Origin: Clostridiales bacterium
GTDB taxonomy: Bacteria; Bacillota; Desulfotomaculia; Desulfotomaculales; VENG01
DNA: 63,272 nucleotides
NCBI GenBank assembly: GCA_016278505.1
Contig: JADQBQ010000011.1
Location: forward strand, 1-63,272
Direction: 5' to 3'
Positions 43,298 to 59,948 of the stretch are shown in pieces (within the stretch, counting starts at the first letter, position 1; every line of letters begins with the position of its first letter). Below the pieces are notes generated by a model. The model had not been told where the DNA came from and made no database searches. It saw only the letters and a program-made list of their open reading frames with translations. The position numbers and the translations under genes are program-made.

Positions 43298-46200
43298 TTG
43301 CATAAATATACTCCATTGGTACTTATTATTTCACTATTAATCATGACTGCAGTCGGGGCAGCATGGCTGACCGGCCCGGAAAACAATAATCAAACTCCCC
43401 CGCAGCAGCCCTTGGATAATAACACCGGCGGCGAGCAACCAGACCCGCCCCAAGAAAGCAAATTAAAGCAATATGCCCTGCAATTGTCCCGGTCCCTGAC
43501 CACAGACGAAAAGACAAAACTGGAATCCATAGCGGAATCCGCGGGTTCTCTGGGGGGAAACACTATACTGGTAAGAGCCCCAGAAGACCGTCAGGGCGAA
43601 TTACAATCCCTTCCCTTCGTAGAAAGTACAAGGGAATATTTACCGGTGCAAAAAACCGGTGACAAGATCAAAAGCAGTACCGGGCAGAGCCAGAAAGTAA
43701 AGGTTACCATCACCCTTTTCTCCGGTGATGACCAAAATGATGTCATTAACTTGATACAAAAGCTGGGAGGCTCTGTTACAGAGAAGCAGGGCCGTTATTT
43801 GCGCGCGGAAATCCCCGGTTTTTCAATCGATAAACTCACCGCCTCACCTGCGGTAATGTTCGTGGAGGAGAATGAAGAACCGGAGCTTTTAAATAACCGG
43901 GCCAAGGATATAACCGGGGCCAGGCCTCTGGCTATTCCCGGCTTTTTAACTGAGCCGGGTCTTACCGGTGAGGGGCAGACGCTGGGCCTTGCGGACAGCG
44001 GCCTGGATACCGGTTCCATGGGTAACCTGCACCCGGACCTAGAAAGCCTGCCGGGGCGAAAACCGCGAGTGATAATGCTCAAATCCTGGGCCGGGGTGGA
44101 AACCCCTGCCGATACCATTGGGCACGGTACCCACATGGCCGGGACCATGGTGGGGAGCGGTCAGGCTTCCGGAGGTTTATACGCCGGTCTGGCGCCGGGA
44201 GCCAGCCTCTATTTTCAGGGTATTATGGACGAGCAGGATAATCTGGCACCCCCTCTTGACCTTAGACAACTATTTAGCCCGGCTTACGATGCAGACGTAC
44301 GTATCCATGTAAACGCCTGGGGCAGAAAAAGTAATATATACAACAGCTCAGCATCACAAATAGATAAATTTGTTCGCAGGTATCCCGACTTTTTACCCAT
44401 ATTCGGAGCAGGAAACTCAGGGCCCCGGGTGGGCAGTCTTACCTCCGAGGCCAACAGTAAAAACTCTTTAACTGTGGGTGCCTCTGTTAGTCCGCGTCCA
44501 GCTTTTGATGACGTTCTGGGCTCAACCGGTGAGACTGCCGGCTTTTCCAGCCGGGGCCCTACAAAAGACGGGCGCATCAAGCCGGACCTGCTTGCCCCGG
44601 GTACCAATATCATTTCAACTGCTTCCAGAGTGGTGGAAAGCGGCCTTCCCGGCAGGCCCGAGTATACTTCCCTGCAGGGAACAAGTATGGCATCCGCGGT
44701 GGCGGGGGGAGCGGCCGCTTTACTGCGGCAGTACCTACAGGAAAATGAAGGCATGGCCGAGCCTTCGGCGGCCTTGTTAAAAGCAGCCCTGATCAATGGA
44801 GCGCGGCATCTGGATGGCACGCCTTCGTCAGTGGGTTTTGGGTTGCTGGATATAAGCAGTACTGTTATTGCTCTGAAAAATGGGCTTTTTAATGCGGTGG
44901 ACAATTATGAAGGTATTACTACCGGTGAAAGTGCGGCCTATGAAATAAAGGTTACCGACAGCACGGCACCTTTGAAGGCTACCCTGGCCTGGACCGACCC
45001 CGAAGCAATGCCCGGCTCTCCCGCCACCCTGGTCAATGACCTCAACCTGGAAGTGACCGCACCCGGCGGCGAGAAATTTTACGGTAACGACTTCAATCAA
45101 AAGGGTATTTCAGATACCCGCAATAATGTAGAACAGGTATACATTCCAAATCCCCGGCCGGGAACTTATAAAGTAACGGTCCACGGCGAATCCGTAGCTG
45201 AAGATGTTACGCTGAGCAAAGGTACTACCCAGGATTACGCCCTTGTATTCGGGCAGCCGCCGGTGCAGGGTGTTGTTACTGAAAGTGCAGGGGATAAAGT
45301 TATTTTAGGCGGAGGGACAGAATTGTCCCCCGGGAAAGACATCACACTGGCGGTGAATGACCGGCTGAGTTCAGTACCAGAAAAATTGCTGCCGGGTACT
45401 GAGTTGTATATGGCCGGTAACCCCCCAAATGGCAAAAAAACGTATGCTGTTCTACGGGCCGGCCGGGTGGACGGCGTAAAAGCCCTGGTTGTAGATGATG
45501 TAACGGTACTGGTGCGTATGAATTCCGAACAGCGGGAAGGCGGTTATGCCGTAGATAACCAGGCGCAGGGCGTGTTATCCCTCAATGGCCACCCACTACA
45601 ACAAGGGACGGTAATTCCGCCCGGATCCAGTGTCACCCGTTATGTTAACCCACACCGGCAAACTCTCTGGAAGGCAGACATTACAAGCCGGGAAATAAAA
45701 GGAGTACTTTCCGGTATAGACCCGGAAAAACACCAAATAGAAATATTAAACACGGATAACATATACCAACTGGCCGGTGAGGCATCCCTTTCCTTTTTTG
45801 ATGTCATGGTGGGCGGTGACCTTGCCGACCTGCCCTTTGGGACTTCCACCCCGGCTGATTTAAACAATCTACTCCAGGGGATGCCCTTGAATATCACACT
45901 GGGCTCGGACGGACAGGTGTACCACCTGGCGGTCAAAAGATATATGGTAACCGGCAAGGTAAGTGAAGTGAAAGCTGCCACAGACCACATTATTCTCTCT
46001 TCAGGCGGCGAATACCATGTAATGCCGGGGATTAAGGTTGTGCGGGACGGGAAACCCGCAGGGCTGGAGGAAATTAGAGAAGGCGACCTGGTAATGGTCA
46101 ACCTGGTTCCCGAATCTACAAGAGCTTTAAGCGTTAACGCCTTTTCCAGTGTAGGTTACGGGCGTGTTATCTATACGGAAGATGATACCCTCTACCTGAT

Positions 46201-47419
46201 GGACAATGAGGATGGCTTTAGCATGTTAAGCTTTCACCCGGATATAACTGTTTTCAGGTGGGGGATGGCTGCAGGTACTTCGTCTTTGAGTCCCGGCCAG
46301 TGGGTACGGGTGATCAAAGATCCCGTTTCCGGTGAGGCAAGGCGGGTTGATATTGCTGATTTGGCCGGCAAGGTAGAAGCCGTATTGGAGGCCTATAACC
46401 CGGGGGGCAATATCATAAAAACAGCGGACGGTGAAAGCTATCGGTTGAGCTCTGTTTCCCAGGTCACCAAAAACGGCATTGCGGTAAAACCGCGAGATTT
46501 GCTGCCGGGAGAACAGGTTTCTATCACAGTGCTGCACGGTCCGGAGGGCGAGAAAATAATTGCCGCCCTGGAAGCCGAAACCCGTGCCGGGGTGAAGCCT
46601 CCGGAGTTAAAAGTAAAATCAACCGTACCATTTGAAGACATTTCACTTATTTCCGGTAATACCACAGCCTCTCGTCTTTATGGGTGGTTTCCGGGTGGAA
46701 AGTATAAAGACATTGAACTTTCCGATGCAGGAGAATTTTATTACCCCGTTCAAGGGGCGGAGGCTGAAAACATCAGGCTGGTGGCCGTAGATACTAAAAC
46801 GGGCGGTGTGGCCTCACTGCAGCTGAGCCTTCCCCGCAGGGCTACCGGATTCCCGGACATTGAGGGGCACTGGGCGGAAATAGATATTGGCAATCTGGTC
46901 TCCAGGGGTATGTTAAAGGGTTACCCGGACGGCACCTTCCGGCCGGACAGGGAAGTAAACCGGGTGGAATTCACCGCCATGCTCACCCGTTTGATGGGGG
47001 GCAGTGCCGCGGGAGCTGATATTCCATATGACGATGCAGAGGATATCCCGCGCTGGGCCAAGGGCGCGGTGGCGCTGGCGCACAGCCGTGGCCTGGTGGG
47101 AGGATACGAGGACAACACCTTCCGCCCCTACGCCGAAATCTCCAGGGAAGAGGTAGCAGTACTACTGGTACGGGCCTACGACATCCTAAAGGGCATTCCA
47201 CAGGATATTGAGGATAATGCTCCCCCCTATGCCGACCGAGGCAGTATCGCCGCGTGGGCAAGGGAAGACGTGGCTCTGGCCAGGGAACTGGGCCTCTTGG
47301 GAGGCAGACCGAACAACCGCCTAGCGCCCAAAGACCACCTCACCCGAGCCGAAACCGCCGCCGCCTTGAGCCGCCTACTACACGACCTAACCAACCAAAC
47401 AACCAAGCAGCCCACCTAA
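43298..47419 (+). CDS. Giant subtilisin-like (S8) protease with three SLH domains
   Basis: A 1373-residue secreted protein. A signal/anchor segment (LVLIISLLIMTAVGAAW) leads to an inhibitor-like prodomain and an S8 catalytic domain: Asp about 233 in LADSGLDTG, His about 276 in GHGTHMAG, the GAGNSGP oxyanion region, and Ser about 463 in GTSMASAVAGG, so the triad is complete. A P-domain/jelly-roll-like part follows, then a long stretch of beta repeats (about 650-1180) that I do not recognise. Three SLH domains (about 1184-1365; GHWAEIDIGNLVSRG, GYPDGTFRPDREV and related) should bind it to the cell wall. TTG 43298 follows GCGAGGTAAG. Confidence 0.9.
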   Translation: MHKYTPLVLIISLLIMTAVGAAWLTGPENNNQTPPQQPLDNNTGGEQPDPPQESKLKQYALQLSRSLTTDEKTKLESIAESAGSLGGNTILVRAPEDRQGELQSLPFVESTREYLPVQKTGDKIKSSTGQSQKVKVTITLFSGDDQNDVINLIQKLGGSVTEKQGRYLRAEIPGFSIDKLTASPAVMFVEENEEPELLNNRAKDITGARPLAIPGFLTEPGLTGEGQTLGLADSGLDTGSMGNLHPDLESLPGRKPRVIMLKSWAGVETPADTIGHGTHMAGTMVGSGQASGGLYAGLAPGASLYFQGIMDEQDNLAPPLDLRQLFSPAYDADVRIHVNAWGRKSNIYNSSASQIDKFVRRYPDFLPIFGAGNSGPRVGSLTSEANSKNSLTVGASVSPRPAFDDVLGSTGETAGFSSRGPTKDGRIKPDLLAPGTNIISTASRVVESGLPGRPEYTSLQGTSMASAVAGGAAALLRQYLQENEGMAEPSAALLKAALINGARHLDGTPSSVGFGLLDISSTVIALKNGLFNAVDNYEGITTGESAAYEIKVTDSTAPLKATLAWTDPEAMPGSPATLVNDLNLEVTAPGGEKFYGNDFNQKGISDTRNNVEQVYIPNPRPGTYKVTVHGESVAEDVTLSKGTTQDYALVFGQPPVQGVVTESAGDKVILGGGTELSPGKDITLAVNDRLSSVPEKLLPGTELYMAGNPPNGKKTYAVLRAGRVDGVKALVVDDVTVLVRMNSEQREGGYAVDNQAQGVLSLNGHPLQQGTVIPPGSSVTRYVNPHRQTLWKADITSREIKGVLSGIDPEKHQIEILNTDNIYQLAGEASLSFFDVMVGGDLADLPFGTSTPADLNNLLQGMPLNITLGSDGQVYHLAVKRYMVTGKVSEVKAATDHIILSSGGEYHVMPGIKVVRDGKPAGLEEIREGDLVMVNLVPESTRALSVNAFSSVGYGRVIYTEDDTLYLMDNEDGFSMLSFHPDITVFRWGMAAGTSSLSPGQWVRVIKDPVSGEARRVDIADLAGKVEAVLEAYNPGGNIIKTADGESYRLSSVSQVTKNGIAVKPRDLLPGEQVSITVLHGPEGEKIIAALEAETRAGVKPPELKVKSTVPFEDISLISGNTTASRLYGWFPGGKYKDIELSDAGEFYYPVQGAEAENIRLVAVDTKTGGVASLQLSLPRRATGFPDIEGHWAEIDIGNLVSRGMLKGYPDGTFRPDREVNRVEFTAMLTRLMGGSAAGADIPYDDAEDIPRWAKGAVALAHSRGLVGGYEDNTFRPYAEISREEVAVLLVRAYDILKGIPQDIEDNAPPYADRGSIAAWAREDVALARELGLLGGRPNNRLAPKDHLTRAETAAALSRLLHDLTNQTTKQPT

Positions 47420-48212: not shown

Positions 48213-49265
48213 CTAACTCTCCAGCCACAAAATAATCGTATCCGTATGAGCTTCCTTATCCCAGGCCTTCAACTGAGCCTGTATGCTCGCCATCCTAACC
48301 TGCAGCTGTTCCCGCTCAGTATCATCCTCAGTGCCTGCCAGCTGAGCCTCCAGCGACCGGTATTGTTCCACATTTTCATTATACCGGCTAGTAATATCAT
48401 TTCTCTGCCGGTCATCGGTTACAACCTGCCCCAAAGCCTTAAGATTCTTAAGCAGGCTTTCGGTCCGGCTGCTTTCCACCACCACTTTTACTGTTTCCTG
48501 GCTACCGGTGGCTGTACTTTCAGAACCGAGAACTTCAAATTGTGCACCCATATTATTGAGGTACTGCACCATCTGCTCGTGGGACGCATCGAAATCATTT
48601 ACCGCCACCCTCAAAAAGGTGCGCTCAATAACCCGGTCCATATCAATGTTCAGCCATACATATTGTGCCGGGTCAGATTGAATTTCAACATTGCCTGCCG
48701 ATGGATCATCATCGGGTACTTCAGTGTCCTTTTCCTCAGGATTCTGAACACCGGGGTCTTTCTCACCGGCACCGGGCTGTTTCGGAGTATCTTTCTCAGA
48801 ACCGGTTGCACCGGTTTCATTGCCCGGGTCTTCACCGCCGCTGTTATCCGGGGCAGGTGAAGGAGAAATATCCGGGTTATCCGTCACTATTGCCGGCGGA
48901 TTTTCATGGGCCACATGTGTCACCGCATTGCCGCCCCACTGCAGATAAGCTCCTGCAGAGCCCGCGGCCACCAACAGAAATGCTGCTGCAGCGGCTACAC
49001 TGCGCTTCCAACCGGCAACCACTCTCCGGGCCGCATTGTTTTGCTGCTCCGGCAACCGTGCCATAACCCCTGCGGCAAAGTCCGCCGGTGCCTTGATAGC
49101 ATTCCCCTCATCACGCAGGGTGGTGCCTATCCCCTGCCAAAAGGAAACCTCATCACGGCAGGAAGGACACTTATCAATATGCTTTTGTATCGCCTCAGCC
49201 TGAAAGGCTTCGGTCTCACAGTCCAGCCAATCGGGTATCAATTGCTGAACCTGTTCGCATTTCAT
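48213..49265 (-). CDS. Membrane anti-sigma factor with zf-HC2 and DUF4349 domains
   Basis: A 350-residue, single-pass protein. The N-terminal zinc-binding anti-sigma domain has HIDKCPSCRDEV (H-x3-C-x2-C). A membrane segment lies near residues 90-107 (AAAAAFLLVAAGSAGAYL). A Pro/Asp/Glu-rich linker leads to a DUF4349 outer domain (about 205-350) with a coiled coil (NENVEQYRSLEAQLAG). It should hold the adjacent sigma factor until an envelope signal releases it. It overlaps the sigma gene by four bases (ATGA). Confidence 0.88.
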   Translation of the reverse strand: MKCEQVQQLIPDWLDCETEAFQAEAIQKHIDKCPSCRDEVSFWQGIGTTLRDEGNAIKAPADFAAGVMARLPEQQNNAARRVVAGWKRSVAAAAAFLLVAAGSAGAYLQWGGNAVTHVAHENPPAIVTDNPDISPSPAPDNSGGEDPGNETGATGSEKDTPKQPGAGEKDPGVQNPEEKDTEVPDDDPSAGNVEIQSDPAQYVWLNIDMDRVIERTFLRVAVNDFDASHEQMVQYLNNMGAQFEVLGSESTATGSQETVKVVVESSRTESLLKNLKALGQVVTDDRQRNDITSRYNENVEQYRSLEAQLAGTEDDTEREQLQVRMASIQAQLKAWDKEAHTDTIILWLES

Positions 49266-49879
49266 CCCTTTTCACCTCCCCGGCGCCTGTCCTTATAGGG
49301 AAGACTTCTGCCGTTTTCAGCGGCAAGCCTCGTTATTTCCTTTTTCAGTGTCTGGCGCGCCCTGTTGATCCTGGATTTGATTGTCCCAAGGGAGCAGTCC
49401 AGCATACCGGCTATCTCGTCATAGGAGTAGCCCTGCATTTCCCTTAGTACCAGCACCGTCCTGTGTTCCGACGACAGTTCCCAGAGGGCATTGCGTACCA
49501 TGCCGCGAAATTCCTTATTTTCATAGGCCTCTTCCGGGCTTTCGCCATTCGATGCCACCATGCGCGGCATTTCCCCTTCCTGGGTTTGTACCGGACTGTC
49601 TAAAGAAACATCAGGTTTCTTTTTGCGCTTTTCATTAATAGAAAGGTTCACTGCTATCCGGTGCAGCCAGGTACCAAAATCCGCCTCGTTACGGAACTTC
49701 GGCAGGGCCTTGTAGGCTTTAATGAAAGTATTCTGGGCCAGGTCCTCAGCATCGGCGTGATTGCCGGTGAGCTGGTAACTGAGTCCATAGATCCTGTCCT
49801 GGTACATGGTCACCAGTTCCTCGAAGGCCCCGGTGTCGCCCTTTTGAGATCTTTTTACCAGTAGCTTAGCGTTATCCAA
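49262..49879 (-). CDS. sigW: ECF RNA polymerase sigma factor (SigW/RpoE-like)
   Basis: A 205-residue ECF sigma factor. Region 2 has FEELVTMYQDRIYGLSYQLTG and DAEDLAQNTFIKAYKALPKF (in parts YQDRIYGLSYQLTG, DAEDLAQNTFIKAY); region 4 has LVLREMQGYSYDEIAGML and TIKSRINRARQTLKKEI. The start is taken as TTG 49879, behind AGAGGGGG; the longer frame to 49927 would begin inside the promoter at 49918-49946. The matching promoter suggests it drives its own synthesis and the S-layer-like gene at 52020. Confidence 0.9.
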   Translation of the reverse strand: MDNAKLLVKRSQKGDTGAFEELVTMYQDRIYGLSYQLTGNHADAEDLAQNTFIKAYKALPKFRNEADFGTWLHRIAVNLSINEKRKKKPDVSLDSPVQTQEGEMPRMVASNGESPEEAYENKEFRGMVRNALWELSSEHRTVLVLREMQGYSYDEIAGMLDCSLGTIKSRINRARQTLKKEITRLAAENGRSLPYKDRRRGGEKG

Positions 49880-49917: not shown

Positions 49918-49946
49918 TTAGACACAAGTATGTAAAGAAAAGTTCC
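49918..49946 (-). promoter_or_regulatory. ECF promoter of the sigma/anti-sigma operon
   Basis: On the minus strand: GGAACTTTT, 12 bases, GTGTCTAA. It is identical in boxes and spacing to the two promoters at 51563 and 51709. Start of transcription would be near 49910, about 30 bases before the TTG start. Confidence 0.75.
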
Positions 49947-50021
49947 GGGCCAGGCCAAAAATTACTAAAAAAAGCTTCTTAAAATCTTAAAGCCTTAAAA
50001 CCTTAAAACCTTAAAACCTTA

Positions 50022-51320
50022 GACAGGATTACAGGATAAAACACGATTAAGGCTTTGGGCATTCCTCTTGGGTCTTTTATTTCGACGGGATTAACGGGAT
50101 CAAGCGGGATTTTGGTTGTGAGCATTTGCGTTACTCACGTATATAAACTAATCTACTCCGTGTTCAACACTGTCCCTATAATGATTTTTAAATAATAAAT
50201 GCTTTTAAAATTAGACCCACCAGACATCCTTATGTGCTAAATAACAAAAACCTCTTACCGAAACCCCAAGCAATCAACAATCCCATAAATCCCGTTAATC
50301 CCGTCGAAAAAAGGTCTTTTAAATCTTTTAATCTTTAAAAAGTAGACGCGAACAGCATCTATTAATCAGCAAAAATATCAATCTAAAGTTCGTCTAACTT
50401 ATCTATCCTGCAAATCCTGTAATCCTGTCCAAAAAAGTCTTAAATCTTTAAATCTTTAAATCTTAGACAGGATTACAGGATAAAACACGATTAAGGCCTT
50501 GGGTATTCCTATTGGGTCTTTTATTTAGACGGGATTAACGGGATCAAGCGGGATTTTGGTTGTGAGCATTTGCGTTACTCAGCGCATATAAGCTAATCCA
50601 CTCCGTATCAAGCAATTATCCCTATAATGATTTTAAAATAATAAATCTTTTTTAAAATAGCCCCACCAAAATTCCTAATGTGCTAAATAGTAAAAGCCTT
50701 TCATAAAAAGCCCAAGCAACCCACAATCCCAAAAATCCCGTTAATCCCGTCGAAAAAAGGTCTTTTAAATCTCTTAATCCTTAAACAGTAGACACGAACA
50801 GCATCCATTAATCAGCAAAGAAAGCAATCCAAAACCTACCTAACTTATCTATCCTGCTAATCCTGTAATCCTGTCCAAGAAGGTCTTAAATCTTTAAATC
50901 TTTAAATCTTAGACAGGATTACAGGATAAAACACGATTAAGGCCTTGGGTATTCCTATTGGGTCTTTTATTTAGACGGGATTAACGGGATCAAACGGGAT
51001 TTTGGTTTTGAGCTGATGCGTTATTTAGCCTTTTAGAACTGATTTACTCTGTTACCAGAGCCTGCCCTACAATGATTTATAAATAATAAATTCTTTAAAA
51101 TAGAACCACACAAAAAAGCTTATCTGTCTATCAGTGAAGACCGGCATATAAAATTCTTTAATTTAACAATCCCGGAAATCCCGTTAATCCCGTCAGAAAA
51201 AGGTCTTAAAATCTTTTAATCTTTAAACCCGTCAACACGAACAACATATCTTTGTCATCAAACACATCAATCTCAAAATTAACCTAAATTATATATCCTG
51301 CACAATCCTGTAATCCTGTC
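50022..51320 (-). repeat. Three tandem complete family A elements, reverse orientation
   Basis: Units at 50022-50429, 50466-50875 and 50912-51320 (408, 410 and 409 bp) repeat with a period of about 445 bp. All keep the four arms and the loop with CTAATCCACTCCGT-type sequence and AATAATAAAT. The third is the most diverged, so the array is not of one age. It fills the space between the sigma factor and the S-layer gene. No gene within. Confidence 0.9.
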
Positions 51321-51562
51321 CAAAATATGTACTTATGTTGTCCCCAAAGCAAAGCCAACTAGATAGTTAACCCTCTTAATAATTTACTCTAAATCATAGC
51401 ACATTTCAAAGGGTACAGGTGCCATACTGTCCTTATTTTTCAAATAAACTATTAGAATTTTTCATCCTAACCCCTTGTCATAACAGGTTTCTTAGGACAT
51501 TCTACCGTAAAACGGTGACATATAATGAAGAAAAACTTTTTCATATTAATTTTGTTACAACT

Positions 51563-51591
51563 GGAACTTTTGGCAAAACCACCGTGTCTAA
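51563..51591 (+). promoter_or_regulatory. ECF promoter P1 of the S-layer-like gene
   Basis: GGAACTTTT at 51563, 12 bases, GTGTCTAA at 51584-51591, the same boxes and spacing as the sigma gene's own promoter. Confidence 0.72.
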
Positions 51592-51708
51592 CTAATCGAG
51601 TATAAACAAAGACATGCCAATTAAGCCAAAGCAATACAGTAAACCCAGCACCGGAAAACAGAGCCATGGTAATAAATCAAAATTTCTACAAAAAATTTTT
51701 CACCAAAC

Positions 51709-51737
51709 GGAACTTTTGACAGAAACCATGTGTCTAA
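51709..51737 (+). promoter_or_regulatory. ECF promoter P2 of the S-layer-like gene
   Basis: GGAACTTTT at 51709, 12 bases, GTGTCTAA at 51730-51737. P1 and P2 are 146 bp apart, and the sequence around them (AACTAATCGAGT and AATTAACCGAGT) is also alike, so one arose by duplication. An open frame of 95 codons through here is rejected. Confidence 0.72.
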
Positions 51738-52019
51738 TTAACCGAGTGAAAAACAAGAACATCCACTGCAAGAAATACATAAGCTACTTGAAGGATCCTG
51801 GAATTACAGCTATAATGTTCCATGGAAGTGGATGGAGAACTTCTTCACAAGGCGAGTCAGCGGCCAAGCCGCTTCTCTATATTAGTAAGTTAATAAATTA
51901 ACTGATACATCTCAAAGGGGGGATGTGAAACACCAGTAAGGGCTTCACCTTTTCAAACTTAGTTTGGAAAGTAAATAAGGCTGAAAGGCCAAAAACAAAA
52001 ATCAAGGAGGGAAATAAAT
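51738..52019 (+). promoter_or_regulatory. Long 5' leader of the S-layer-like gene
   Basis: About 275 bases from P2 to the start codon. The last 120 bases have possible small stems: GTGAA..TTCAC (51927-51950), CAAACT..AGTTTG, and GGCTGAAAGGCC, then AAGGAGGG. It may stabilise a very abundant mRNA. No known riboswitch was recognised. Confidence 0.4.
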
Positions 52020-54248
52020 TTGTTTAGAAGCAAAAAGTTTTCACTTTTAATGGCTCTAGTATTTGCTTTCACCGTAATTATGCCGGTGGGCGCAGCATTT
52101 GCTGGCGAAGACAACACCGATATTAGTGGTACCTACAACTATGTAGAGACCGGCGAAGATGTTAAAGGCGGTAATGTGCGCGTTGTATCAGATACTTGGG
52201 AATTTGATACCAATGATGTAGTAGTTCAATTGAGCCTACCAGAAGGCGTTGATTTTACTGATGATGGCGAAGCTGAAGATAGTGTAGGTGATTGGGTATA
52301 TGCTAACTTGGACGGCGGTACTTTCCAGTCACTCGAAAATTACACAGAAAACACTGATTATGAGCTAGTAAATGTAAGCAGTGACTATGTTGAAATTAAG
52401 TTTGTTTCTCCGACTGAAGCTTCCTTTAAAGCTGAATTTGATTTCGGTAAAGCAGTTTCAGACTTAGAAATTGATGATGATTTCACTGGTAACCTGGATG
52501 TAGCGGTTGATGTTATTGGTATTAATACTGGTACTTCAGAATCAATCACATTTACTGATAATGCAGATGTTACTATCGCAAAAGTTTCCGGTGGAGAAGT
52601 AGATGTGGTTGTCGGTGATACCAAGAAGGTTTCCATTGGTGGAAATGAGGAAGTATCCGATATTACATTAGAAGAATCCATGGCGGGTGCTTTCAATAAT
52701 CCTGAAGAGATTAAACTAGAAATTGAAACTGACGGTGTTGAATTTAAGTCCGTAAAAGTAGATAGCTCACGGCTAGATATAAGTCGCATAAATGTTGACA
52801 CGAATGGTGATGAAAGTGATGTTGCATTAACTGATGGTGATGAAATAACTGCTTTTGAAGAGGACAATGAAGTTCTTCGCCTTAAGGTCACAGGTAACTC
52901 AGAGAGCCTGCCTGGCGAAATAGCTTTAGATCCGATTAAACTTGATATTGCTCCGGATGTTAGTGGAGAAATAGAGATATCAATAACCAGTGACGAAGAT
53001 GGTGCTGATATTGACGAGACAGTTACTGTAGCCACTGTAGGCGATGTTACCGCTGAGGTAGCCGACATTGAAGATAATGACTCCACCGCATATGCTGGTC
53101 AAGATACTGATCTGGATGTAAGCTTTGACCTTAAGACAACTGACGGTAGTGATTTTGAGGAAGGCGACATGGTTATCTTTGAGCTAAACAAAGGTAAATT
53201 CGCGAACAAGCCTTCAGTTGATCTTGGCGATGCTGACGATGTAGATTTGTATAATGACGATGCAAGTTTCTATTACACATTCCCCGACGATACAGATGAA
53301 ATTACAGTTGATGAAATCTCTGTAGTTTTAGATAACGATGCTGAAGCCGGTGACCTCACTCTTGCTATTAGTGGAGACTATGGTGATCTTGAAGAGGTCG
53401 TAATTGGTCAGGTTGCTAAGCCCTTTACGGTAACTGCTGATAAAACTGAAATTCTCGCAGAAGCTCTCGGCCAGGATGCCGGTGACATTACCATCACTGA
53501 AGCTGCTGATGGAGCATTTGTAAAGGATCAGCATATCTACGTTGAAATGCCTTCCGGTATTGAGCTCAGTGGTAAGCCTAGCATAGAAGTGACCGAGGGC
53601 AGTGCTGATGCTGATATTGAAGACTATGACGAAGATTTCTTTGTAGTCAAGATTACTGAAGAGAGTAGTAGTGAGCCTAGCACATTACGCGTATATGACC
53701 TGCAATACGATACCGGTAAATTGGCTTTAACTGGTGACGTAGAGCTTGAATTCCGTGGTGACATTGATGAGACACTAAACAACAATCACACAGATTACGG
53801 TGATGCTCTTGGCACAAATGAAGACAAAAAAGTTGAACAAGATGGTGAAGATTGGGAATTTGATGATGAAAGTATCTTTGCAGTTGTTGCTAACGCTTCC
53901 GTAGTTGACCAAAACGCAGTAACTGCTTCCTTCACCGTTGGTGATGAAGGCGTAGCTATCAAGAATGGCCGTACTCTGGTACAGGTTAATCTCTTGACCG
54001 AAGTTCTTGGCCTTCAGAAGAGCTGGGATGCAGCTAGCAAGACTGCATACTTCGTAAAAGACGGTAAGGTTGTAGCATTCCCCATCGGACAAAACGTAAT
54101 CATGATCAACGGTACCGAACTGCCGGTTGATCAAGGCGGCGTAATCATTGATGGTGCAACCTACGCAACCCTGCGCGGTATCCAGGCAGCCTTTGGCGGC
54201 GAATTGACCTGGGACGGCGTAACCAAGACTGCTACCTTTAACTTCTAG
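52020..54248 (+). CDS. S-layer-like secreted protein with copper-amine-oxidase N-fold, paralogue 1
   Basis: A 742-residue, strongly acidic secreted protein. Signal peptide about 1-28, ending AAFAGEDN. Residues about 30-630 are predicted beta-rich repeats full of Asp and Glu with few Cys, as in S-layer proteins. The last 120 residues form a copper-amine-oxidase N-terminal-like domain (NGRTLVQVNLLTEVLGL, KTAYFVKDGKVVAFPIG, ATYATLRGIQAAFGGEL), which is often a wall-binding module in clostridia. It starts TTG 52020 after AAGGAGGG. Paralogue at 57705. Two ECF promoters precede it. Confidence 0.85.
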   Translation: MFRSKKFSLLMALVFAFTVIMPVGAAFAGEDNTDISGTYNYVETGEDVKGGNVRVVSDTWEFDTNDVVVQLSLPEGVDFTDDGEAEDSVGDWVYANLDGGTFQSLENYTENTDYELVNVSSDYVEIKFVSPTEASFKAEFDFGKAVSDLEIDDDFTGNLDVAVDVIGINTGTSESITFTDNADVTIAKVSGGEVDVVVGDTKKVSIGGNEEVSDITLEESMAGAFNNPEEIKLEIETDGVEFKSVKVDSSRLDISRINVDTNGDESDVALTDGDEITAFEEDNEVLRLKVTGNSESLPGEIALDPIKLDIAPDVSGEIEISITSDEDGADIDETVTVATVGDVTAEVADIEDNDSTAYAGQDTDLDVSFDLKTTDGSDFEEGDMVIFELNKGKFANKPSVDLGDADDVDLYNDDASFYYTFPDDTDEITVDEISVVLDNDAEAGDLTLAISGDYGDLEEVVIGQVAKPFTVTADKTEILAEALGQDAGDITITEAADGAFVKDQHIYVEMPSGIELSGKPSIEVTEGSADADIEDYDEDFFVVKITEESSSEPSTLRVYDLQYDTGKLALTGDVELEFRGDIDETLNNNHTDYGDALGTNEDKKVEQDGEDWEFDDESIFAVVANASVVDQNAVTASFTVGDEGVAIKNGRTLVQVNLLTEVLGLQKSWDAASKTAYFVKDGKVVAFPIGQNVIMINGTELPVDQGGVIIDGATYATLRGIQAAFGGELTWDGVTKTATFNF

Positions 54249-54442: not shown

Positions 54443-55591
54443 TTGCGGCGGATAGTCGTAAATATTACAATTATATTTCTAATGACCTTTTTGTTTGCCG
54501 GGGTTTGTTATGCAGCCGGTGAGGACATGCAGTCGGCGGATAGTGAGCAATCCGGGCTGACGTTATCGGAAACTATGGAGATGGCCCTTATCAAAAGCAT
54601 ACAGTTGGAACAGGCTGAAAAGGATGAGGAGCGGGCTGAGGAGGTTCGGCACGCTTCCAGGAGCGGTTACATACGTGGTGTTGCTAATACTCCCATGACC
54701 GGTGAATTGTATGTAAGTGCATCAGGAGCAGGGGAGCCCTTCTTCCAGTTCTTGAGTGCTGATGCCCAGTGGGGCATCAGTAAAAAGATGCTGGAAATCG
54801 CCAAGGATTCCATCACCCTTCAGGCCAAGAAAGGCTATTTTGATGTACTGCAAAAGCAGCAAAAAGTGGTGAAAGCACAGGTTGAACTGGACAAGGCGCA
54901 AAGGGATTATCGTAGCGCTGCAGCCAGAAAGTCAGTAGGTATGGCCTCGACTTCTCAAGTACAGGGGGCTAAAGCCGCCGTGGAGCAAAAGGCGAGTAAT
55001 TTGGAACAGGCCAGGGCGGACCTGGAAAAGGCATATCGTTCCTTAAATAAATTAATCGGTAATAAGCCCACGGAACGACCGGAATTGGTAACACCCATAG
55101 AATATGAAAAGTTGGAACCACCGGCCCTGGAGAATAAAATAGCCACGGCATTGTCTTCCGATAATAACCCGTACATGTGGGTTAAGGAAGAGAATTATGA
55201 CCTCAGCAAATATACATGGACCTTTGCACAAGTTGAAGAGGCCGGGTTGATTGATACGGAAAAAGCAAATCTCAGTTATCAAGATGCGCAAAAGGATATG
55301 AGAAATACAATCCACGAATTATATGACACTTTAAAGACCCTGGAGGCGTCATACGAGTCTGCAAAACAGGCGGTGACATCCGCTGAGAGTGCACTGGCTA
55401 CGACGCAAGCCATGTTCAATGTGGGCATGGTCACCAAAAGCGAAGTGTTGGAAAAAAAAGCCACCCTGGAAACAGCAAAGGACGGCTTATTAAAAGTTAA
55501 AAGCTTGTATGCCATAACTAAAGAGACCTTTGAAAAACCCTGGCTGGCCGTAACCACAGCCGGAGCAGGGAGTTCAAGCCAAGCCACCTAA
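54443..55591 (+). CDS. TolC-family protein
   Basis: A 382-residue secreted protein with a signal peptide (about 1-25, ending CYAAGED) and long amphipathic helices of the outer membrane efflux (OEP/TolC) type: LTLSETMEMALIKSIQLEQAE, KGYFDVLQKQQKVVKAQVELDKA, AAARKSVGMASTSQVQGAKAA and AMFNVGMVTKSEVLEKKATLE (each cited in part). Two such hairpins are seen, so the repeat structure of TolC is kept, but the beta-barrel strands are not clear. TTG 54443 follows AAGGAGGG. Its role in a spore-forming Firmicute with no obvious outer membrane is unclear; it may span an S-layer. Confidence 0.8.
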   Translation: MRRIVVNITIIFLMTFLFAGVCYAAGEDMQSADSEQSGLTLSETMEMALIKSIQLEQAEKDEERAEEVRHASRSGYIRGVANTPMTGELYVSASGAGEPFFQFLSADAQWGISKKMLEIAKDSITLQAKKGYFDVLQKQQKVVKAQVELDKAQRDYRSAAARKSVGMASTSQVQGAKAAVEQKASNLEQARADLEKAYRSLNKLIGNKPTERPELVTPIEYEKLEPPALENKIATALSSDNNPYMWVKEENYDLSKYTWTFAQVEEAGLIDTEKANLSYQDAQKDMRNTIHELYDTLKTLEASYESAKQAVTSAESALATTQAMFNVGMVTKSEVLEKKATLETAKDGLLKVKSLYAITKETFEKPWLAVTTAGAGSSSQAT

Positions 55592-57603: not shown

Positions 57604-57704
57604 ATTGCTATTTAAAAGTTGGGAAGGAGGTAATTTGATTACCGTTAAGTGTACCTTAGAGCTTGTTAAGGGTAAAGGCATACTTTTTAAAGGAGGAAAT
57701 CACC

Positions 57705-59948
57705 TTGATTAAAAGTTCCAGATTGTCTCTATTCATGGTCGTCTTGTTTGCTATTAGCGTAATTATGCCGGGGAGTGTCTTTGCAGCAGAGGATAATACC
57801 TCTATCAGCGGAAGTTACGAATATGTAGAAGCAGGGGACGAAGTCTTTTGTGGTGTGGTTCGTGCTGTTTATGATGAATGGGAGGATGGCACTCAGGATA
57901 TTACTGTGCAGCTGACACTGCCTGATGGTGTGGAATTCTCCGATGAACCGTCAACCATGGCGTGGGTTGGAGACCAGGGGACTAAGATTAATTCCGGCAG
58001 TAGTTATTTTGAAGCTGAGTTTAATGGTGTAGATACTGCTTTTAACGTGGAATTTAATTTTGGTTATGATGAAGGAACACAGGAAGAATATGATAGTGGA
58101 GATGTTGCCCTGGATATCGATGATGATTTTTCAGGTAACTTAGAAGTTAGTGTTGAAGTAATAGGACAGGATGGAGATGGCGCCATCCTATGGGCAGATA
58201 GTGCCGACGTGACCATAGCTAAAGTCTCGGGTGGGGAAGTAGACGTAGTTGTAGGAGACAATGAGACTATAGCTATAGGTGACGAGGAAGTTGCGGATAT
58301 TACCTTGGAAGAAGCCACAGCGGGAGCTATTAGTAAAAATGAGTGGATCTTTCTTGAAATTGACACTGATGGCGTGGAGTTTGAATCACTGACGGTGAAT
58401 GAAACAAGAGTTGATGTGAGCGACGGTAATTACAGCAGGGACGACGCCGGCATTGTTTATGATGAAAATGCCAGTCCCGCGCAGACATATTATTTTGACA
58501 AAGACTTTAAAAAATTTGCAGTTCAAGTGCAAAATGTATCGGAAGGTTTACCGGGTGATGTGATGTTCGAAAATATTAAGCTGCAAATTGATCCGGATGT
58601 AAGCGGTGAAATTGAAATGTCTGTGTGGAGCGAAGTGTCTGAGGATGTTGAGGACGAGTCTGTTGTAGTTGCTACAGTTAAAGACAGTGAAATTACAGTA
58701 ACGTCAGATGAAGATACGGGTATGGAAGAGTATATGCGTATTACTGCTATAGGCGAGCTTTGGGAATTAACCCTGGAAAGCAGTGGGGAGTTTGAAGATG
58801 GAGATAAGATAACGGTTACTTTACCCGATAATTTTGAGTTCTATAAGAAGGCCGTCGAAAACTTACCGGTTAATGATTCCAACTTAGTTGACAGTGTAGG
58901 CACATATAACGGTGATCAAAGCTTATGGCTCGAAGTAAATGCCAATGGTGACGGAGAAGATGAAATTGACCTAAAGAATTTATTCGTTGCCGCCCTGCCT
59001 GGAGCGAAATACGGGGACATTAATGTTGAGATTGGCGGAGATGTCGGAACGGCCACGGCAAAGGCAGGTTTTCTTAAGCCGGCAGTGATGATTAAGCCGG
59101 AGCAGACCTATGTGGTAGCACCGGGTTATGGACAACCCGCCGGAAATATCACCTTTACTGAAACAGATGATGATGCCGTCTTTGACGGTATGAACTTGCA
59201 TATGGTGCTTTCGAACGGGGTGGAATTTGCCTCAACTCCAACTGTTAAGGTAAACGGGGAAGAAATTGACGAGGTAAGAGTGGGCCCGGATGAATATGGA
59301 AAAGATGTATGTCAGTTTACAGTGGATAATTCCAGGAGTTCAAAGATTGATACGCTGGTTGTGTCGGACATCAAGTATGATGTTGAAAGTTGGTTTACAG
59401 CAGGGACTATGATTAATGTCAGTCTCGGAGGAAATGACCCTAAGTTAGGCGATACCTTTAATAAACTGTATGAAAGTTACTTGGCATTTGCGGACAAGGG
59501 CTTAGAGGGCCCACCTGCGGACCCCAAATATTGGGATAACTTTCAATTTAATAGTGAAGCTGACGAAGAAATAATTGCTATTCCCAATGCCATCGTGGTT
59601 GACGCAGATCAAGTTAAAGTATCCTTTACCGTAGGCGATGAAGGCGTATACGTAGAAAACGGTAGAACCTTGGTGCAGGTTAACTTGCTGAGCGAAGCTT
59701 TAGGACTCCAAAAGAGCTGGGACTCTGAGACCAAGACTGCATATTTTGTTAAGGACGGAAAGACTGTTGCCTTTCCCATCGGACAAAACAAAGTTACCGT
59801 CGGTAAAGCAGATCTACCTGTTGACCAGGGAGCAAAGATAATCGACGGCAATACTTGCGTAACGCTGCGCGGTCTGGAAATGGCCTTCGGCGGCAAGCTC
59901 ACTTGGAATGGTGAAACCAAGACGGCTACCTTTGTATTTAACAAGTAA
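57705..59948 (+). CDS. S-layer-like secreted protein, paralogue 2
   Basis: 747 residues, same plan as the 52020 gene: signal peptide ending SVFAAEDNTSISG, acidic beta-rich body, and C-terminal copper-amine-oxidase-fold domain (NGRTLVQVNLLSEALGL, KTAYFVKDGKTVAFPIG, CVTLRGLEMAFGGKL). The ends and the block VTIAKVSGGEVDVVVGD are nearly the same in both; the middles have diverged. AAAGGAGGAAA sets the start at TTG 57705; a longer frame from 57663 would lie before it. It probably forms or joins the same surface lattice. Confidence 0.83.
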   Translation: MIKSSRLSLFMVVLFAISVIMPGSVFAAEDNTSISGSYEYVEAGDEVFCGVVRAVYDEWEDGTQDITVQLTLPDGVEFSDEPSTMAWVGDQGTKINSGSSYFEAEFNGVDTAFNVEFNFGYDEGTQEEYDSGDVALDIDDDFSGNLEVSVEVIGQDGDGAILWADSADVTIAKVSGGEVDVVVGDNETIAIGDEEVADITLEEATAGAISKNEWIFLEIDTDGVEFESLTVNETRVDVSDGNYSRDDAGIVYDENASPAQTYYFDKDFKKFAVQVQNVSEGLPGDVMFENIKLQIDPDVSGEIEMSVWSEVSEDVEDESVVVATVKDSEITVTSDEDTGMEEYMRITAIGELWELTLESSGEFEDGDKITVTLPDNFEFYKKAVENLPVNDSNLVDSVGTYNGDQSLWLEVNANGDGEDEIDLKNLFVAALPGAKYGDINVEIGGDVGTATAKAGFLKPAVMIKPEQTYVVAPGYGQPAGNITFTETDDDAVFDGMNLHMVLSNGVEFASTPTVKVNGEEIDEVRVGPDEYGKDVCQFTVDNSRSSKIDTLVVSDIKYDVESWFTAGTMINVSLGGNDPKLGDTFNKLYESYLAFADKGLEGPPADPKYWDNFQFNSEADEEIIAIPNAIVVDADQVKVSFTVGDEGVYVENGRTLVQVNLLSEALGLQKSWDSETKTAYFVKDGKTVAFPIGQNKVTVGKADLPVDQGAKIIDGNTCVTLRGLEMAFGGKLTWNGETKTATFVFNK

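Follow-up and report, generated by a model that had tools for sequence, protein, structure and literature searches.

The window, a stretch of 63,272 nucleotides from a Clostridiales bacterium, carries an ECF sigma factor gene together with an anti-sigma factor gene and, on the opposite strand, the gene of an S-layer-like surface protein (Table 1). Sigma factors are proteins that aim RNA polymerase at chosen genes. A single motif, GGAACTTTT-N12-GTGTCTAA, stands once before the sigma gene and twice in tandem before the surface protein gene, at the sites that we call P1 and P2. The first-pass annotation had proposed that these three copies of one promoter place both genes in a common regulon. All three are present with 0 mismatches, and P1 and P2 do lie in front of the S-layer-like gene.

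Table 1. Features of the sigma factor and surface protein locus, in window coordinates, with the basis of each assignment.
Feature	Position	Strand	Basis
Anti-sigma factor (zf-HC2, helix 63-110, disordered linker, DUF4349-like ectodomain 212-349)	48213..49265	-	Pfam, alignment, structure prediction
Sigma factor of the ECF type (sigma70 regions 2 and 4), probable start at the TTG of 49879	49262..49879	-	Pfam/NCBIfam and orthologue alignment
Putative autoregulatory ECF promoter of the sigma gene, GGAACTTTT-N12-GTGTCTAA	49918..49946	-	Window and genome scan; same place in orthologues
Putative promoter P1 (upstream) of the S-layer-like gene	51563..51591	+	Window and genome scan, relatives
Putative promoter P2 (downstream) of the S-layer-like gene	51709..51737	+	Window and genome scan, relatives
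Extended 5' leader (282 nt, counted from P2)	51738..52019	+	Conserved among near relatives
S-layer-like surface protein, 742 aa, C-terminal Cu_amine_oxidN1	52020..54248	+	Pfam, composition, structure prediction
TolC/OEP-family protein	54443..55591	+	Pfam; in most relatives, similar genes after or close to the surface gene
Paralogous S-layer-like protein	57663..59948	+	44% identity to the protein at 52020

The sigma factor has the composition of the ECF class, with only sigma70 regions 2 and 4 in about 200 aa (Pfam Sigma70_r2 and Sigma70_r4_2; TIGR02937 at 114.9 bits against a cut-off of 42.9). It scores below the NCBIfam cut-offs for both the SigW equivalog (169.6 bits vs 209) and the RpoE equivalog (151.7 bits vs 236). 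The start of the listed open reading frame, at 49927, overlaps the gene's own promoter. The likely start is the TTG given in Table 1, 38 nt past the promoter site, because the conserved part of the orthologues begins there.

In most loci the sigma gene is followed by a gene for an anti-sigma factor with a zinc-binding domain. The protein of the window matches zf-HC2 at 37 bits (cut-off 22.2), the domain occurs in 28 of the 29 aligned anti-sigma proteins, and H29, C33 and C36 of the HxxxCxxC zinc finger, along with C3, are invariant in all 29 sequences. A Foldseek comparison with RslA reached a probability of up to 0.98, but with E > 0.1. The long N-terminal helix contains a hydrophobic stretch and is probably a membrane helix; beyond it come the disordered linker and an ordered ectodomain, for which fold comparison gave no clear match. 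An outer DUF4349 domain had been assigned to this protein by the first-pass annotation. Of the 29 aligned proteins, 22 match the domain at E ≤0.01, but the window's own protein, at 20.5 bits, stays below the Pfam cut-off of 27.7. The pairing of the two genes suggests that the anti-sigma factor binds and inhibits the neighbouring sigma factor. Upstream of the anti-sigma gene, at 43298-47419, lies a gene for a subtilase of 1373 aa with three SLH domains.

The surface protein has a pI of 4.05, no cysteine and, judged by eye, a hydrophobic N-terminus. Its sole Pfam match is Cu_amine_oxidN1, and neither an SLH nor a CWB2 anchoring domain was found in it. The surface proteins encoded at relatives' loci have a signal peptide, a length of roughly 700-800 aa and usually a C-terminal Cu_amine_oxidN1 domain; among 45 aligned surface proteins, the window paralogue at 57663 included, this domain occurs in 42 and SLH in one. 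Structure prediction gives a chain of beta domains (mean pLDDT 76, pTM 0.41). The sequence profile matched no solved structure, and fold comparison of the predicted model brought up only beta-sandwich adhesins and pilins of a generic kind (best Z 10.5, 124 residues), which is neutral as to S-layer status. We consider this adjacent major surface protein a probable S-layer protein. The paralogue has no copy of the promoter motif in front of it and may be reached by read-through.

The leader between P2 and the surface gene contains a terminator-like hairpin, AGCGGCCAAGCCGCT, at 51859-51873, followed by TCTCTATA, and in its 3' part GGCTGAAAGGCC directly 5' of the ribosome-binding site AAGGAGGG. 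A hairpin of the GGCC-GAAA-GGCC type also stands ahead of the ribosome-binding site in the leaders of near relatives, and the conserved leader could possibly serve as an attenuator or stabiliser. An Rfam search of the leader returned no credible leader RNA, and we do not claim a structured leader RNA, since consensus folding gave one compensatory pair. Three tandem copies of a 446-bp unit (49989-51325, 83% matches), with ATCCCGTTAATCCCGTC- and ATCCTGTAATCCTGTCC-type words in them, take up the space that separates the two promoter regions; in near relatives this space measures only ∼200-400 bp. No Omp85/BamA was detectable in the genome that carries the TolC/OEP gene, and an OEP protein has been found in the surfaceome of Desulfotomaculum reducens (PMC4137172).

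The promoter motif is scarce. Across the 3.92 Mb genome, zero exact copies were found beyond the three of the window, and shuffled windows gave an expectation of 0.20 matches, with a maximum of 2, at up to 3 mismatches. Allowing up to 2 mismatches added two sites, each with 2 mismatches (C32 and C55). Neither is a likely target: the C55 site falls inside a 542-aa open reading frame, and the C32 site inside one of 173 aa, with the next open reading frame 234 nt off. The shorter core GGAACTTT-N15-GTCTAA recovered the same three exact copies genome-wide and four more with one mismatch. Sites precede genes, and the random placement that would have spoken against the first-pass annotation was not seen. 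Its argument that differing spacers around fixed bases betray selection needs qualification. Fixed bases and spacing are the same in all three copies, but P1 and P2 are partly non-independent: they share half of the bases in their spacers, and their flanks correspond as far as about +40.

The comparison with relatives lends the observation much further support. Motif, sigma protein and surface protein each served as a query against 60 related genomes, and a match of at least 200 bits was counted as a close sigma orthologue. A site at ≤1 mismatch was found in 30 of the 35 genomes with such an orthologue and in 2 of the 25 without (Fisher P ∼1e-9 over the 60 genomes, kinship among them ignored). 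The two exceptions are G031 and G016, the latter only 57% complete. Five genomes have the sigma factor and no site at this threshold, and four of them (G021, G030, G039 and G053) carry 2-mismatch sites near the sigma or surface gene. The cleanest set consists of 22 close loci from named genomes, retrieved via the sigma protein alone and including Desulfoscipio geothermicus, Desulfotruncus arcticus, Pelotomaculum, Heliorestis, Heliobacterium mobile, Moorella and Syntrophomonas wolfei. The core is present in 20 of these 22 loci, which together hold 36 sites at N15 and 2 at N14; no other gap length between 6 and 26 is represented, and the chance expectation is 0.0025 per gap. Among 58 control loci of distant ECF factors, N15 sites were absent and N14 was represented once. 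For all retrieved loci together, which were partly chosen by motif, the counts rise to 90 at N15 and 3 at N14.

The promoter takes the form GGAACTTT-N15-GTCTAA with TGTCTAA preferred; a T precedes GTC in 93% of the aligned sites. The genes downstream of the sites are the sigma gene, mostly at a distance of 25-55 nt, or the surface protein gene, at ∼115-480 nt. Exact-core scans of six whole named genomes placed 15 of 18 sites at the sigma/surface locus. Eight further loci have a doublet of the P1/P2 type ahead of the surface gene, the two sites being 73-121 nt apart (146 here); since these loci keep it, the doublet is old and no recent copy. The sequences themselves show the motif with its exact spacing, where it sits and that it is conserved, and the idea of an ECF-type promoter under selection is supported by the fixed spacing, by the position and by conservation in distant genera. 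The motif also precedes the sigma gene both here and in most orthologues, as expected at sequence level of an autoregulated ECF factor and as had been proposed.

Judging from these comparisons, the neighbouring ECF sigma factor almost certainly has its autoregulated promoter in the conserved site and would have a near one-target regulon. One small circuit probably controls both the sigma gene itself and the cell's surface coat, because the sigma and surface genes share the promoter and their pairing recurs across many anaerobic Bacillota. The best explanation, to which we assign a probability of about 85%, is that an ECF sigma factor held by its anti-sigma factor drives its own operon and the adjacent surface gene. 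The zinc-domain anti-sigma factor, which probably spans the membrane, would hold the sigma factor; once freed, the latter would transcribe its operon from the autoregulatory promoter and drive the surface protein gene through tandem P1 and P2, with the TolC-like gene possibly co-transcribed after it. Letting go of the sigma factor would thus raise both the sigma operon and the surface gene. We infer that the neighbouring sigma factor reads the sites and that regulation runs in this direction; the trigger would be the state of the envelope or of the S-layer. Surface stress, the signal put forward in the first-pass annotation, and DUF4349 as its sensor are hypothetical.

A relative in S. wolfei supports the proposed output indirectly and bears on how such a circuit would be used. 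In the relevant passages of the literature, Swol_0133 is a predicted S-layer protein (PMC3582634, PMC4324140, PMC11087674), the membrane-fraction protein of highest abundance (PMC3582634, PMC4324140) and the top-expressed gene in ordinary co-culture (PMC11087674); those passages of the three papers do not connect it with any ECF sigma factor. The divergent target gene of S. wolfei subsp. methylbutyratica (L108) encodes a protein with a C-terminal Cu-amine-oxidase-type domain and has the promoter core beside the sigma orthologue. It is the only full-length match among 12 in that genome, and its product has a mass of 77.7 kDa, against the 78.1 kDa reported for Swol_0133 in the passages concerned. 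By mass and domain, the two would be the same gene.

A challenge to the neighbouring sigma factor as sole controller comes from a paralogous ECF sigma factor with its own copy of the motif (at C18), which, given overlapping specificity, might be the partial or main reader of the sites. A one-mismatch copy of the core, GGAACTTTCATAGCGAGGCGGGCGTCTAG, lies between the paralogue's sigma gene and its anti-sigma gene (L215:3939-3967). In S. wolfei (L250), an exact-core site, one of the three off-locus sites of the six-genome scan, is found where another ECF gene ends, ahead of that factor's anti-sigma gene. Because paralogous ECF systems here and in S. wolfei carry a similar motif, promoter recognition may overlap. 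We nonetheless regard control by the paralogue as unlikely: 23 of the 25 genomes whose best ECF match falls below 200 bits have no site at ≤1 mismatch, and the paralogue's own sites read CGTC instead of the preferred TGTC, although the surface-gene site of S. wolfei itself has CGTC. Far less credible still, to the point of being almost negligible, is a reading of the three copies as a repeated element, or as a recent duplication, that plays no part as a promoter. The partly alike flanks of P1 and P2 and the 446-bp tandem repeat between the sigma and surface genes could be read that way, but the repeat array holds none of the three sites, and the single fixed spacing, the differing spacers and the conservation in distant genera contradict it.

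Housekeeping sigma might instead be the main transcriber of the surface gene, with the ECF promoters adding a conditional boost. The rank of the S. wolfei relative as top-expressed gene in ordinary co-culture, in the passages cited above (PMC11087674), would suit this proposal, as would a 10-of-12 sigma70-like match, TTGAAG-17-TATAAT, at 51788-51816, downstream of P2. Yet sigma70-like matches in the P1/P2 region are at chance level (24 found, 23.2 expected), and this element is absent from several relatives in which the ECF sites are retained, which leaves the proposal a minority view, doubtful but worth keeping in mind. The same reported expression, as far as those passages go, also seems to fit awkwardly with a purely stress-inducible model. 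Since the three papers describe expression of the S. wolfei relative during ordinary growth as extremely high (PMC3582634, PMC4324140, PMC11087674), the circuit of the neighbouring ECF sigma factor may be a standing S-layer driver instead of a stress response. A more speculative extension is an S-layer homeostat, in which the anti-sigma ectodomain would sense coat coverage or export and a sigma factor with essentially a single structural target would continuously drive one of the most abundant proteins of the cell in a number of Bacillota lineages (Desulfotomaculum-type bacteria, heliobacteria, Moorella and Syntrophomonas).

A link between an ECF sigma factor and an S-layer gene in this lineage was not found in the open-access literature, and the proposed circuit shares parts with several known systems. 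E. coli sigmaE (RpoE) governs an autoregulated envelope-stress regulon from the promoter GGAACTT-N16-TCTGA. The -35 element and the spacing are much alike here, and autoregulation, a membrane anti-sigma factor and an envelope output would be common to both. Unlike sigmaE, with its large regulon and outer-membrane porin signal, the present system has an anti-sigma factor with zf-HC2 and an exact-site regulon of almost only itself and one surface protein. Bacillus SigW/RsiW resembles it in the zinc-binding N-terminal domain of the anti-sigma factor, and among NCBIfam models SigW matches the sigma factor best; however, the -35 element is GGAACTTT here and TGAAAC in the SigW consensus, and the ectodomain and target are different. 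The S-layer genes of Brevibacillus and Lactobacillus also have doubled or multiple promoters and a long 5' leader, but those promoters are attributed to housekeeping sigma, whereas both promoters here are copies of an ECF-type site.

The common view of ECF sigma factors is that of stress switches with low basal output, and the one described here appears dedicated to one probable S-layer gene, whose relative in a model syntroph is reported to rank first in expression. The circuit would provide a specific and testable answer to how the synthesis of the surface coat is set in these anaerobes. Its promoter is well defined and may be usable in genetic work, and the circuit gives a starting point for finding out what DUF4349 anti-sigma factors do.
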